From NCBI RefSeq assembly GCF_000468755.1, contig NZ_AWEZ01000067.1:1-64000 (forward strand): a stretch of 64,000 nucleotides of DNA, read 5' to 3'. Source of the DNA: Olsenella profusa F0195. GTDB lineage: Bacteria; Actinomycetota; Coriobacteriia; Coriobacteriales; Atopobiaceae. The number at the start of each line of letters is the position of its first letter. The stretch's first letter is position 1. Below, one piece after another: positions 12,449-47,416 of this stretch. Under the pieces are notes generated by a model. The model was not told where the DNA came from. It saw only the letters and a program-made list of their open reading frames with translations, and did not search any database. The position numbers and the translations under genes were made by a program.

Positions 12449-12624
12449 GGGAGCGAAAGGGCCCCAAGTGCGTGCCGACATCGAGGCGCAGGGTGGATTC
12501 GTCGGGGAGTCGGGGGCAACCCAGCGCCCTCGCGGACCTCGATCCTGGGCTTTCGTCGCTCGCGGGTGTCGCCAACGCGCCGTGGGCACGCAACCGAGCA
12601 CGCACTTGGGGCCCTTTCGCTCCC
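12449..12624. repeat. Palindromic element A (family with GGGAGCG...GTGCGTGC ends)
   Basis: A 176-bp element with a 27-bp perfect terminal inverted repeat (12449-12475 and 12598-12624; outer end GGGAGCGAAAGG, inner end CAAGTGCGTGC). The interior, read on the minus strand, contains AAAGCCCAGGAT and CTCGATGTCGG, blocks shared with element C, so this copy is in the opposite orientation. A GGCGGCAT stretch just outside is also shared with element E. No gene is inside. It separates secY from adk and resembles a MITE or a REP-type repeat. Confidence 0.75.
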
Positions 12625-17786: not shown

Positions 17787-17983
17787 GGGAGCGAAATGGC
17801 CCCAAGTGCGTGCTGGCCTCGCGTCCCATCCCCGCCAGGAGAGCATCCAGCGAGCCCACATAGGGAAAGGAAATCTTCTTTCGTTGCAAAAACAACGCTT
17901 TGGCCCAGCTGAGCGCACCGATCTGCACCTTCTAGGGACCCAACACCCGCTATGCAGCACGCACTTGGGGCCATTTCGCTCCC
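17787..17983. repeat. Palindromic element B, on the rplE side of the inserted gene
   Basis: A 197-bp element with a 28-bp perfect terminal inverted repeat (17787-17814 and 17956-17983; outer GGGAGCGAAATGG, inner CAAGTGCGTGCT). The ends are the same as in elements C and E, but the interior is different from A, C and E and less GC-rich, with AAAAACAACG inside. It lies about 190 bases upstream of the inserted nuclease-like gene. Confidence 0.75.
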
Positions 17984-19375: not shown

Positions 19376-19560
19376 GGAGCGAAATGGCCCCAAGTGCGTG
19401 CTCGGTTGTGTGTTCATGACGCGTCAGCGGTGTCCACGGATGGCAAAAGCCCAGGATTGGGATTTGCTGAGATTCGTGAAGGCGGCAGATGGCTCCCGAT
19501 TTCCCGATGGGGCCGCCTTACGTCTCGATGTCGGCACGCACTTGGGGCCAGTTCGTTCCC
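19376..19560. repeat. Palindromic element C, on the rplX side of the inserted gene
   Basis: A 185-bp element with terminal inverted repeats at 19376-19401 and 19534-19559 (24 of 26 positions pair). The interior has GTCCACGGATGGCAAAAGC followed by CCAGGATTGGG, shared almost exactly with element E and, inverted, with element A. It starts 30 bases after the stop of the inserted gene and ends 11 bases before the terminator that closes rplX. Confidence 0.75.
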
Positions 19561-25598: not shown

Positions 25599-25784
25599 TG
25601 GAGCGTTTTGGGCTGAAGTGCGTGATGGCTGCGGGGCCAAGGGGGCAAAATGGGCGATTCCATCGTCTTGGGATCCCGTCGGAGGCTGTGGTGGCATCCA
25701 TGTAGGTACATAACCGCACATGATGGATGCATTTGGATGGGGTCTCGGCGTAACCCATCACGCACTTCAGCCCAAAACGCTCCA
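25599..25784. repeat. Palindromic element D (variant ends), rplC side of the pilus locus
   Basis: A 186-bp element with a 30-bp perfect terminal inverted repeat (25599-25628 and 25755-25784). The ends share GGAGCG and AAGTGCGTG with elements A, B, C and E, but the middle reads TTTTGGGCTG instead of AAATGGCCCC, and both arms changed together. The interior differs from the other copies. No gene is inside. It lies between the S10 promoter and the Cna-B adhesin gene. Confidence 0.7.
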
Positions 25785-34433: not shown

Positions 34434-34609
34434 GGGAGCGAAATGGCCCCAAGTGCGTGCCCAGGCACGTGCCCATGGCACGTCGACGACGTCCACGGAT
34501 GACAAAGGCCCAGGATTGGGATTCGCGAAGGCGCCAGATGGCCCCCGGTTTCCCTGTGAGCTTGCCTTGCGCCCTGACGTCGGGACGCACTTGAGGCCAT
34601 TTCGCTCCC
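34434..34609. repeat. Palindromic element E, rpoC side of the pilus locus
   Basis: A 176-bp element with inverted ends at 34434-34462 and 34582-34609, differing by one substitution and one extra base. The interior contains GTCCACGGATGACAAAGGC, CCAGGATTGGGATT and GGCGCCAGATGGC, in the same orientation as element C. It lies between the rpoC terminator and the pilus operon promoter. Confidence 0.75.
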
Positions 34610-44197: not shown

Positions 44198-44402
44198 GAA
44201 ATACACCTCCCTGTCTGCGCTCGGGCACGAGCCGCCGACGCGGGCGGACCTTCGCACGAAGGACCCCGCCTGGCGCGCAGCCAAAGCGGGGTCCAAGAGA
44301 CAAGTCTGAGACCACCTCGGCAGGCGGGTTCCCCCTTTGAGCCTTGCGGCACCGGCTGTCTTTGGCAGCGGACGTGCTGTTTGTACATCGCCCTTTCGGA
44401 CG
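44198..44402 (-). promoter_or_regulatory. Probable L10 (rplJL) leader
   Basis: About 205 bases between the inferred start of transcription and rplJ. It contains GGACCCCGC (44294-44286 minus) paired with GCGGGGTCC (44269-44261) and a small CTTCG / CGAAG hairpin next to it (44260-44250). L10 leaders autoregulate rplJL by binding L10-L12 to such a structured leader. This one is assigned by position and structure, not by a matched consensus. Confidence 0.45.
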
Positions 44403-44572: not shown

Positions 44573-44787
44573 CGGACTCCGGGGGCTCACGCCCGCATGG
44601 CATGAGTCGCGCCGCATCATGAATGGATCCGCCTCGCCCATGGAGACGCGTGTCATGCGAAGGGGAAGGTCTCGGCGGAGGCGCCGACTGACCGATGCCC
44701 TTGATGACCCGACCTCGCGGTGGGCACGGGGATCGGTTCTGAGCGCGCTCGTCGACAGGCCCGTAGGCCGTGGCGGCTCCAAGACGC

Positions 44788-44848
44788 GCGTTGGATTGAG
44801 GCTGCCCCACGTTTGCCCAGTTGGGAAATCTCACGCTCAATCCAACGC
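44788..44848. repeat. 61-bp stretch with 13-bp perfect inverted ends
   Basis: GCGTTGGATTGAG (44788-44800) and CTCAATCCAACGC (44836-44848) enclose 35 bases. It lies just downstream of the rplA terminator on the minus strand. It may be a miniature palindromic repeat. Confidence 0.4.
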
Positions 44849-44856
44849 ACACGTAC

Positions 44857-44889
44857 AAAAAGGTGTCCCGGCCTTCAGGCCGGGACACC
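44857..44889 (-). terminator. Strong terminator after rplA
   Basis: On the minus strand GGTGTCCCGGCC (44889-44878) pairs perfectly with GGCCGGGACACC (44873-44862) around a four-base loop, followed by TTTTTGT. It starts three bases after the rplA stop. It separates rplKA from rplJL. Confidence 0.88.
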
Positions 44890-44892
44890 CTG

Positions 44893-45597
44893 CTACTCGG
44901 CGAGGAAGTCGCGGGTGACGAAGGGGTCAATCCTGACGCCCGGACCCATCGTGGAGGACACGGAGATGGACCTGACGTAGCGGCCCTTGGCGCTGGAGGG
45001 CTTCACGCGGAGAATCTCGGTGTAGAGGGCCGCGTAGTTCTCCACGAGCTGCTCGACGGGGAAGGAGGCCTTGCCCAGGGGCACGTGGCAGATGCCATAA
45101 CGATCGGCGCGATACTCCACGCGGCCGGCCTTGAGCTCGCCGACCATCTTCTCGACATCCATGGTGACGGTACCGAGCTTGGGGTTGGGCATGAGGCCAC
45201 GGGGGCCAAGGATGCGACCAAGACGACCGACCTTGCCCATGAGATTGGGCGTGGCAATGACGGCATCAAAGTCAATGTTGCCAGCCTGAACCTCGGCAAC
45301 GAGGTCGTCAGAGCCCACGATGTCCGCGCCGGCGGCCTTGGCCTCGTCGGCCTTGGTGCCCTCGGCGAAGACGGCCACGCGCACGTTCTTGCCGGTTCCG
45401 TTGGGCAGGCTGATGGAGCCACGGACGTTCTGGTCGGCCTTGCGGGTGTCGACGCCCAAGCGGATGGAGGCCTCGATGGTCTCGTCAAATGCGGCGGACG
45501 CAAGCTCCTTGACGAGCGCAAGTGCCGCCTTGGGGGCAAGGGCGTCCCTCTCGACCTTGGCCGCAGCCGCGTTGTACTTCTTTCCATGCCTTGCCAT
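44893..45597 (-). CDS. rplA: 50S ribosomal protein L1
   Basis: Mobile L1-stalk protein and usual repressor of the rplKA operon. From ATG 45597 (GAGGAGG upstream) the product has 234 residues starting [18 protein letters not shown]. It has [20 protein letters not shown] and [15 protein letters not shown], the L1 signature. The frame remains open upstream without similarity. Confidence 0.96.
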
Positions 45598-45737
45598 ACT
45601 ACGTACCTCCTCTAGGTAGTTGCGAGGTGAACGGGCTGGCCACCCTCCCTCGATCTCAATGGCACTCCACCAGTTTCCAACGTTTGCCACTGCCGAGCCG
45701 TGGGAACCATCGCCAAGTAGCGGCGGCAGAAACCGAT

Positions 45738-45803
45738 GGGTGCATCCCCTTGTCCTCGGCGAAATCCATGAAATGCTTGAGCCGAGGACAAGGGGATGCA
45801 CCC
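45738..45803. repeat. 23-bp perfect inverted repeat between rplK and rplA
   Basis: The arm 45738-45760 (starting GGGTGCATCCCC, ending CCTCGGC) is exactly inverted at 45781-45803, with 20 bases between. The right arm also overlaps an alternative hairpin, GCACCCC-CGAA-GGGGTGC (45799-45816). The two structures are mutually exclusive in an RNA. It lies in the 223-base gap of a normally tight gene pair. Confidence 0.65.
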
Positions 45804-45820
45804 CCGAAGGGGTGCGTGCG

Positions 45821-46249
45821 CTACTCGGCGATGGTGACGCCCATGGAGCGGGCGGTGCCGGCAACGATCCTCTTGGCCGCCTCGATGTCGTTGGCATTGA
45901 GGTCGGGCATCTTGATCTCGGCGATCTTGGTGAGCTGCTCCTGGGAGAGCTGCCCCACCTTGTCGCGCTGGGGCACGCCGGAACCGCTCTTGAGCTTGAG
46001 CTCCTTCTTGATGAGCTGGGCCGCCGGAGGGGTCTTGGTGACGAAGTCGAAGGAGCGATCCTCGTAGACCGTGATCTCCACGGGGATGATGTCGCCGGCC
46101 TTGTCCTGCGTGGCCGCATTGAAGGCCTGGCAGAACTGCATGATGTTGACCTGAGCGGCACTGAGGGCGGGGCCCACGGGAGGCGCGGGGTTGGCCTGGC
46201 CGGCGGGAATCTGGAGCTTGATGAAGTGGACGACCTGCTTTGCTGGCAT
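45821..46249 (-). CDS. rplK: 50S ribosomal protein L11
   Basis: Binds the GTPase-associated centre of 23S rRNA; target of thiostrepton and needed for RelA activation. From ATG 46249 (GGAG upstream) the product has 142 residues with [19 protein letters not shown] and the C-terminal [20 protein letters not shown]. It follows nusG as usual. Confidence 0.96.
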
Positions 46250-46289
46250 CGTGTGTCTCCTTGAAGCGAACGTTTGCGATCTATCGTGT

Positions 46290-46326
46290 CTGTTCCGAGA
46301 AGCAATCCTCACCGATTACGGAACAG
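46290..46326 (-). promoter_or_regulatory. Hairpin before rplK
   Basis: CTGTTCCG (46290-46297) and CGGAACAG (46319-46326) pair with a 21-base loop in the 88 bases between nusG and rplK. It may be the L1 feedback site or a processing signal; no rRNA mimicry was checked. Confidence 0.3.
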
Positions 46327-46337
46327 GGGGTTGTGGG

Positions 46338-46883
46338 CTAGGCGATCTGTGTCACCTGGTCGAGCGTGAGCTCCACTGGGGTCTCGCGACCGAAGATCAT
46401 GAGCATGACCCTGACCTTGCCCGCCTCGGGCATGACCTCGGACACCTGGCCATCAAAGTCGGCCAAGGGGCCACTCACGACCTTGACGGACATACCAGCC
46501 TCAAGGTCGGTCGTGGTGGCGCGCTTAGGCTCCCGCACGCCCGACGGGTTGGTGCGGCGCATGATCTTGTTGAACTCGGAGCGGCGCAGGGGGACGGGCT
46601 TGCCGTCCACGCCCACGAAGCCCGTCACGCCGGGGGTGTTACGCACGACCACCCAGCTGTTGTCATCCAGCTCCATGCGTACGAGCACGTAGCCGGGGAA
46701 GACCTTAACGTCCTTCGTCTCGCGCTTGCCACCATTCTTGATCTCGGTGACCTCCTCGGTGGGAACCTGGATGTCTACGATCTGGTCCTCCATGCCGTAG
46801 GTCTCGATGCGATGCTCGAGGTCGTTCTTGACCTTGTTCTCATAGCCTGAGTAGGTGTGAACCACATACCAGCGCTTAGCCAT
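46338..46883 (-). CDS. nusG: Transcription elongation/termination factor NusG
   Basis: Bridges RNA polymerase clamp and Rho or ribosome. It has 181 residues with the NGN domain (RWYVVHTYSGYENKVKNDLE, VFPGYVLVRM) and a KOW domain (GMSVKVVSGPLADFDGQVSE). It follows secE by seven bases. Confidence 0.97.
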   Translation of the reverse strand: MAKRWYVVHTYSGYENKVKNDLEHRIETYGMEDQIVDIQVPTEEVTEIKNGGKRETKDVKVFPGYVLVRMELDDNSWVVVRNTPGVTGFVGVDGKPVPLRRSEFNKIMRRTNPSGVREPKRATTTDLEAGMSVKVVSGPLADFDGQVSEVMPEAGKVRVMLMIFGRETPVELTLDQVTQIA

Positions 46884-46890
46884 CGTGCCC

Positions 46891-47268
46891 TTACCCCCTC
46901 AGCTTTGTGAATTGGAACATGAGATTGAGGAAGCCCGTATCGACAAGCCATACGACGGCACCCACGACGACAAGCGCCACGATGACGGCCACGGAATAGT
47001 TGGTAAGCTCGGATCTTGAGGGCCAGGACACACGACGAAGCTCGCTCCCCACCGCACCAAGATACGTGCGTATGCGACCCTTCCTCCTGGGCGCCTCCTT
47101 GCCGCCTTTGGCGGAGCCAGCCGCGAGGCTCTTGCCCTCGGACGTGGCGACCCTCTTGGAGCCCTTGGACTCATCGGAAGTAGCGGCAGCCTCCTGTGCC
47201 TCGCGTGCGACACGCTCCCGTTGGCGCGCTTGACGGGCACTCCTCCTCTGTCGCTCTTTCTTTGCCAT
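46891..47268 (-). CDS. secE: Protein translocase subunit SecE
   Basis: Clamps the two halves of SecY in the membrane. It has 125 residues: a long, basic then Ser/Ala-rich cytosolic N-terminus, the conserved amphipathic segment VGSELRRVSWPSRSEL, and a single transmembrane helix (about 92-112). It lies between tRNA-Trp and nusG, the usual actinobacterial arrangement. Confidence 0.95.
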   Translation of the reverse strand: MAKKERQRRSARQARQRERVAREAQEAAATSDESKGSKRVATSEGKSLAAGSAKGGKEAPRRKGRIRTYLGAVGSELRRVSWPSRSELTNYSVAVIVALVVVGAVVWLVDTGFLNLMFQFTKLRG

Positions 47269-47340
47269 CCCTCACCCCTCTTGGATGTCCCTCTTCAGTG
47301 AAACCGGCAAGCCCCAAGGGGGATTGCCGGTGGTGTTAGC

Positions 47341-47416
47341 TGGCACGCCAGGAAGGACTCGAACCCTCAACACTCGGTTTTGGAGACCGATGCTCTACCA
47401 ATTGAACTACTGGCGT
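47341..47416 (-). tRNA. tRNA-Trp (anticodon CCA)
   Basis: The acceptor stem ACGCCAG/CTGGCGT, anticodon stem-loop with CTCCAAA, and T-arm GGTTCGAGTCC can all be folded. The 3' CCA is encoded (47343-47341). It lies between rpmG and secE in the same direction and is presumably co-transcribed. Confidence 0.95.

Follow-up and report, generated by a model that had tools for sequence, protein, structure and literature searches.

A species-specific intercistronic hairpin and an L1-type control element between rplK and rplA of Olsenella profusa F0195

The window analysed here is a 64-kb stretch of contig C67 in the 73-contig, 2.72-Mb assembly of Olsenella profusa F0195. Its ribosomal genes lie on the minus strand in the order nusG, rplK, rplA, rplJ, rplL, an orientation which was overlooked in a preliminary description of the same DNA. 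The gene which we take to be rplK, by recognition and by its partner in all of the relatives' loci, encodes ribosomal protein uL11 at 45821-46249 (open reading frame and translation; 84-96% identity to relatives by tblastn). rplA encodes ribosomal protein uL1; it was identified from its open reading frame and translation at 44893-45597, and it is present in 56/60 relatives' genomes. One relative, G069, has a weak second L1-like protein match (C3:79917-80201; 31% identity, E 1e-3) beside its normal rplA. The putative Shine-Dalgarno sequence of rplA, GGAGG, has a computed position of 45606-45610. Directly 3' of rplA, an inverted-repeat search found a 13-bp hairpin, followed by five T residues read from the sequence (44862-44889, minus strand); this hairpin probably ends the rplK-rplA unit as an intrinsic terminator. 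A scan of 44600-47400 gave no promoter-like site. The gap between rplA and rplJ contains a perfect inverted repeat (arms of 13 nt, loop of 35 nt; 44788-44848). A sub-threshold match to the L10 leader is found at 44249-44383 on the minus strand (27.6 bits; gathering threshold 44), in its expected place before rplJ.

The intercistronic spacer between rplK and rplA (45598-45820) is 223 nt long, the length originally stated. Spacers were taken from 132 loci with both genes, the window genome's own loci included, which gave 98 distinct sequences ranging from 52 to 223 nt with a median of 108. The gap was described as unusually long, and it is indeed the longest of the 98; it is less odd than it seemed, however, given the range among relatives, and much of such gaps is a known L1 site which had gone unseen. 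The length of the gap is thus partly explained by the L1-type site before rplA. No paper on the rplK-rplA gap of Olsenella or Coriobacteriia was found in the open-licence literature.

The putative uL1-binding (autoregulatory) element lies at 45623-45652 on the minus strand and was missed in the preliminary description. It reads CGAGG-GA-GGGU-loop-GCCC-GUUCA-CCUCG and ends 13 nt upstream of the Shine-Dalgarno sequence of rplA; its assignment draws on compensatory changes in relatives and on likeness to the genome's own 23S rRNA. Like other L1 sites it is an irregular stem-loop, with two helices and GA opposite GUUCA. The motif GUGGGAGGGC-loop-GCCCGUUGACCAC was found by regular expression directly upstream of the rplA Shine-Dalgarno sequence in 97/98 distinct spacers, and the only spacer missed, L118, is visibly a one-base variant. 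Both helices form in 96/97 parsed rows, a count which leans towards structure as the parser takes standard pairs only; in L009, the one row that failed to parse, the loop of the CGAGG form is longer. The lower helix is GUGG/CCAC in 79 of these 96 rows and CGAGG/CCUCG in five (the window, G060, G003, G008 and G002); the remaining 12 could be parsed only as shifted or G-U forms. The upper helix is GGGC/GCCC in 85 rows, GGGU/ACCC in four, GGGU/GCCC in three, GGAU/AUCC in three and GAGC/GCUC in one. The helices therefore keep their pairing through two-sided changes, from GUGG/CCAC to CGAGG/CCUCG in the lower helix and from GGGC/GCCC to GGAU/AUCC or GAGC/GCUC in the upper. A second L1 site before rplK was found by regular expression in none of the 98 loci (~160 nt upstream of rplK). 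No Rfam family matched the L1 element at E values up to 5, and Rfam reports no L1 family there. A known RNA family for the gap was rejected as a candidate; the only Rfam overlaps, with microRNA families and Dictyoglomi-1, were sub-threshold and implausible.

The 23S rRNA of the window genome contains GGUGGGAGACGC...AGUCGCCCUUGGAAUACCACC, which we take to be the ribosomal L1 site. Comparison by eye shows that the strands GUGGGAG and ACCAC are common to the 23S rRNA (GUGGGAG...CCUUGGAAUACCACC) and the mRNA motif. uL1 represses translation of rplA through its site in the mRNA. According to a 2024 review (PMC10931766), the L1 sites of Actinobacteria are situated ahead of the L1 cistron. The element in the window resembles the site described there in position, in being a stem-loop with an internal loop, in its likeness to 23S rRNA and in its presence across relatives; the clade of the window differs in having CGAGG/CCUCG instead of GUGG/CCAC as the lower helix. 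Judged by its sequence, what is conserved in the gap is a standard L1 control site and a further example of a known control element. uL1 would bind this element and repress translation of rplA. The L1 helix has a probability of ~0.45 in its 293-nt context, where other folds compete with it, and forcing it costs 0.4 kcal/mol.

Upstream of this element the mRNA contains a long hairpin, found by an inverted-repeat search. In mRNA sense (minus strand), its 5' arm is at 45781-45803 and its 3' arm at 45738-45760, with a 20-nt loop (45761-45780) between them. The arms form 23 perfect base pairs (23/23 complementary), exactly as first described. The chance of such a repeat is ~1e-7 per 64-kb window by our own arithmetic. 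When 45600-45860 was folded as the minus strand, the z-score was -7.5 and 0/200 shuffles were equally stable. G060, a one-contig genome of the same species, has an identical gap except for one substitution; the inverted repeat is therefore not an assembly artefact. Folding also gives a small, UUCG-capped hairpin of 7 bp (minus strand; GCACCCC-UUCG-GGGGUGC in mRNA sense; -13.9 kcal/mol), which overlaps the base of the long hairpin by ~6 nt. This competing hairpin had been noticed earlier and does exist, but it lies at 45798-45815, one base away from the 45799-45816 originally given.

A further inverted repeat on the same strand was overlooked. One side (45819-45835, 5' in the mRNA) is formed by the final codons of rplK together with its stop codon, and the other (45706-45722) repeats the rplK 3' end almost exactly in inverted form, with 16/17 positions matching. 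The resulting outer helix pairs the end of rplK, including the stop codon, with the spacer and encloses the 23-bp hairpin. An inverted match to the rplK end as good as this was obtained in 0/300 shuffles for the window and in 1/300 for the corresponding match in G008 (locus L014). When the full arms of ~55 nt are aligned, stretches of 17 and 23 nt agree, and the 16 nt between them are unrelated in sequence and equal in length on both sides; equal-length internal loops are also seen in G008/L014. Outer-helix scores of at least 11 occur only in the window's species (two genomes) and L014, and the next best score among the 98 spacers is 7. The match in L010 is no better than shuffles (227/300 as good). 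The outer helix was therefore dropped as a clade-wide feature, being clear in only two species among the 98 spacers. Both the window's species and G008 have the outer helix, and the inner hairpin is independent in each.

The long hairpin is limited to the window's species. Matches were found in 2/140 family genomes, namely the window genome and G060, and there was no match in the other 138. The arrangement is absent from G001 and G002, which belong to the same genus and have only 11 and 10 nt, respectively, between the rplK stop codon and the L1 element. Within the window genome, a search at E <= 0.001 returned only the locus itself and its inverted self-match, and GGATGCACCCC with at most one mismatch occurs at 81 sites compared with 107 for a control.

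Relatives nevertheless often carry some hairpin in the slot between the rplK stop codon and the L1 element. Among the 92 spacers in which stop codon and element are 25 nt or more apart, 58 have a hairpin of at least 7 bp within the 60 nt that follow the stop codon, against 17.6 expected from mononucleotide shuffles. With dinucleotide shuffles, z is below -2 in 63/94 and below -3 in 45/94 upstream segments of at least 15 nt. These counts are not independent, since many of the relatives are close (e.g. Collinsella). The slot is shorter than 25 nt in 5/97 spacers, among them those of G001 and G002. Perfect inverted repeats of at least 15 nt occur in 11/98 spacers, and their sequences are unrelated. 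The hairpins of G003 and G008 also have different sequences, each unique in its genome. A hairpin followed by a T-tail is not the rule in relatives; in 7/92 spacers the nine bases that follow the best hairpin include at least five T.

Other Atopobiaceae include some in which the palindromes of this slot are dispersed. The locus of Olsenella uli An820 (L109) matches its own genome 66 times, mostly to the palindrome, and GGGACNGTCCC occurs 82 times in that genome against 0 for a control. The same sequence is strongly enriched in G029 and G163-G167 (49, 14, 19, 82, 63 and 15 against 1, 2, 0, 0, 1 and 0 control sites); the counts are 0 against 2 in G168, 6 against 1 in G003 and 3 against 4 in G008. 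Shared descent of the window's hairpin with these palindromes is unsupported, with 4 sites against 7 for the control in the window genome. The gaps of L093, L100, L109 and L110 contain paired, near-identical palindromes centred on GGGACNGTCCC or a close variant; their arms differ between species and agree within a locus, and the centre is enriched throughout these genomes. The gaps of L015, L052, L089 and L097, all loci from MAGs, share a related complex hairpin (…GGATTTCTTCG…CGGCTTCGCCTCA…) in which the outer arms are different yet complementary. A 25-locus tree speaks neither for nor against a single origin of the long hairpins, with six changes needed and 4/22 inner branches well supported; rows were hand-picked to include hairpin cases, and the counts describe that choice.

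The preliminary description offered two readings of the long hairpin, an attenuator and a palindromic repeat inserted in the operon. As an attenuator, the small and long hairpins would serve as alternative terminator and antiterminator structures and set transcription of rplA. The 3' arm of the small hairpin is indeed part of the 5' arm of the long one, a similar overlap occurs in G003, and prefix folding gives the small hairpin initially (P 1.0), followed by its loss on completion of the long one (P 0.02). To call the two structures mutually exclusive is an overstatement, however. They exclude each other over only about six base pairs and at nearly equal energy: forcing the small hairpin leaves 17 bp of the long helix in place, at -51.0 instead of -52.9 kcal/mol (a cost of 1.9 kcal/mol), and the minimum-energy fold of G003 holds both hairpins. 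Neither hairpin has a U-tract, and a terminator scan found no stem plus T run on either strand of 44600-47400. The silence of the scan is weak by itself, as it also missed the terminator at 44862-44889, perhaps owing to the 2-nt loop of the latter; reading the gap by eye agrees with it. The locus thus has neither the terminator hairpin with a U run nor the mutually exclusive structures, one of them terminating, which characterise attenuators, and the arrangement is absent from G001 and G002. With no U-tract and two hairpins which mostly coexist, an attenuator is very improbable and was rejected. The second reading, taken here as a dispersed palindromic repeat of REP/BIME- or MITE-like type, is hardly more credible. 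Passages of PMC3733652 describe REP/BIME elements as short intergenic palindromes after genes. The hairpin is alike in being a short palindrome after a gene, of the size (20-40 bp, extragenic) expected of a palindromic unit, and Olsenella uli An820 is among the family genomes that hold dispersed repeats in the same slot. The window genome differs; the many genomic copies expected of REP/BIME are not found, as the self-search, the GGATGCACCCC count and the 2/140 family matches all indicate. A palindrome was gained here, as suggested, but no dispersed copies were found in this or the other family genomes, and a pure repeat is not borne out. A different inverted-repeat family is, however, dispersed in the window genome. 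This MITE-like family has copies in the window at 12449-12624, 17787-17983, 19376-19559, 25599-25784 and 34434-34609, in which inverted repeats of ~27 nt (GGGAGCGAAATGGCCCCAAGTGCGTGC) flank 122-139 nt. Its arms have 44 matches in the genome, many of them paired ~150 nt apart. The inner parts are related in the first, third and fifth copies and not in the other two, and the copy at 25599 has diverged arms which are still 30/30 complementary.

Rather than an attenuator, the long hairpin is probably a hairpin for mRNA stability or processing, or else an accident of DNA copying which has been tolerated. The account which we tentatively prefer is a locally generated intercistronic mRNA hairpin which separates decay of the rplK mRNA from that of L1-repressed rplA. 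When uL1 binds its element and represses rplA, the untranslated rplA message would decay; the hairpin would block 3'-to-5' exonucleases coming from the repressed rplA mRNA and so spare the rplK mRNA. Alternatively, or in addition, the hairpin may be cut by a double-strand RNase (RNase III-type) to give two messages, of which the rplK mRNA would survive L1 repression. The anatomy is far more secure than the functional half of this account. Cells require uL11 and uL1 in equal amounts, and the need to separate rplK from rplA is therefore not obvious. The hairpin is also dispensable in the genus, as the short slots of G001 and G002 show, which counts against a need for it.

Comparable hairpins are known elsewhere. 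Two papers describe 3'-UTR stem-loops which set the transcript ratios of operons, including those for ribosomal proteins (PMC8219983), and stem-loops after genes which fix transcript ratios within operons (PMC5927463). The hairpin of the window resembles these stabilising stem-loops, known from operons with selective RNA processing and stabilisation (SRPS), in being a strong, stable hairpin after the upstream gene of an operon and lacking a terminator tail; it differs in that its sequence is species-specific and its outer helix includes a stop codon. The intergenic region of rplL-rpoB in E. coli is described as an RNase III substrate in a part of PMC2777011, and is likewise double-stranded RNA between genes of the same ribosomal cluster. 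That region belongs to a different gene pair. The perfect helix of 23 bp in the window reaches the ~20 bp or more expected of an RNase III site and is a candidate for cleavage.

A local origin of the perfect arms is most likely, through short-range template switching in replication which would also have reverse-copied the end of rplK. Template switching best fits three features together, namely perfect arms, a lack of genomic copies and an adjacent gene end copied in reverse; the unrelated 16-nt stretch in the middle of the arms argues against a single recent switch. PMC8794818 describes how perfect RNA hairpins can arise by template switching. The locus is alike in having perfect stems gained at once together with a reverse copy of neighbouring sequence, and differs in its unrelated mid-arm sequences and in that no relative without the hairpin is close enough for ancestral reconstruction.

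A close rival to the functional hairpin, and a quite possible one, is a tolerated palindrome with no function, left in a harmless slot by template switching or by a lost mobile palindrome. Hairpins would do little harm in this slot, which comes after the rplK stop codon and before a self-contained L1 element. Confinement to one species (2/140 genomes) and absence from G001 and G002 are consistent with this, as is the filling of the same slot by unrelated sequences in other genera, some of them dispersed (in L109, for example). The repeat at 25599-25784 keeps perfect arms even though the arm sequence has diverged, which makes homogenisation of arms at the DNA level plausible. On the other side, the slot contains a hairpin three times as often as shuffles do (58/92 against 17.6), which suggests that a hairpin is favoured, with the limit that shuffles of relatives are not independent. 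Two further readings turn on the stop codon of rplK, which lies inside the outer helix. An unlikely one is a conformational relay, in which a ribosome ending at this stop codon would unfold both the outer helix and the small hairpin, thereby altering L1 folding or rplK-rplA coupling. According to a part of PMC7538156, a reporter shows seven-fold translational coupling of rplK and rplA in E. coli, and the L1 helix has only an intermediate probability in the full fold. The L1 element is ~50 nt beyond the outer helix, however; the folds which lower L1 probability use the intervening sequence and not the hairpin, and only two species show a clear outer helix. A more doubtful reading still is a decay switch which senses termination: the ribosome terminating on rplK would undo the outer helix, and whether the spacer is a long double-stranded RNA target for processing would depend on rplK translation. 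If true, such a switch would link rplK translation to the lifetime of the L1-regulated rplA message.

Whichever of these applies to the long hairpin, the rplK-rplA gap of Coriobacteriales has a conserved L1-type control element which Rfam does not report. Upstream of the element is a variable slot which has been filled repeatedly by strong, unrelated hairpins, as local palindromes in some genera and as dispersed ones in others. The slot offers a natural collection for two questions: whether hairpins inside operons are favoured because of mRNA stability or are simply tolerated, and how perfect stems arise and remain perfect.
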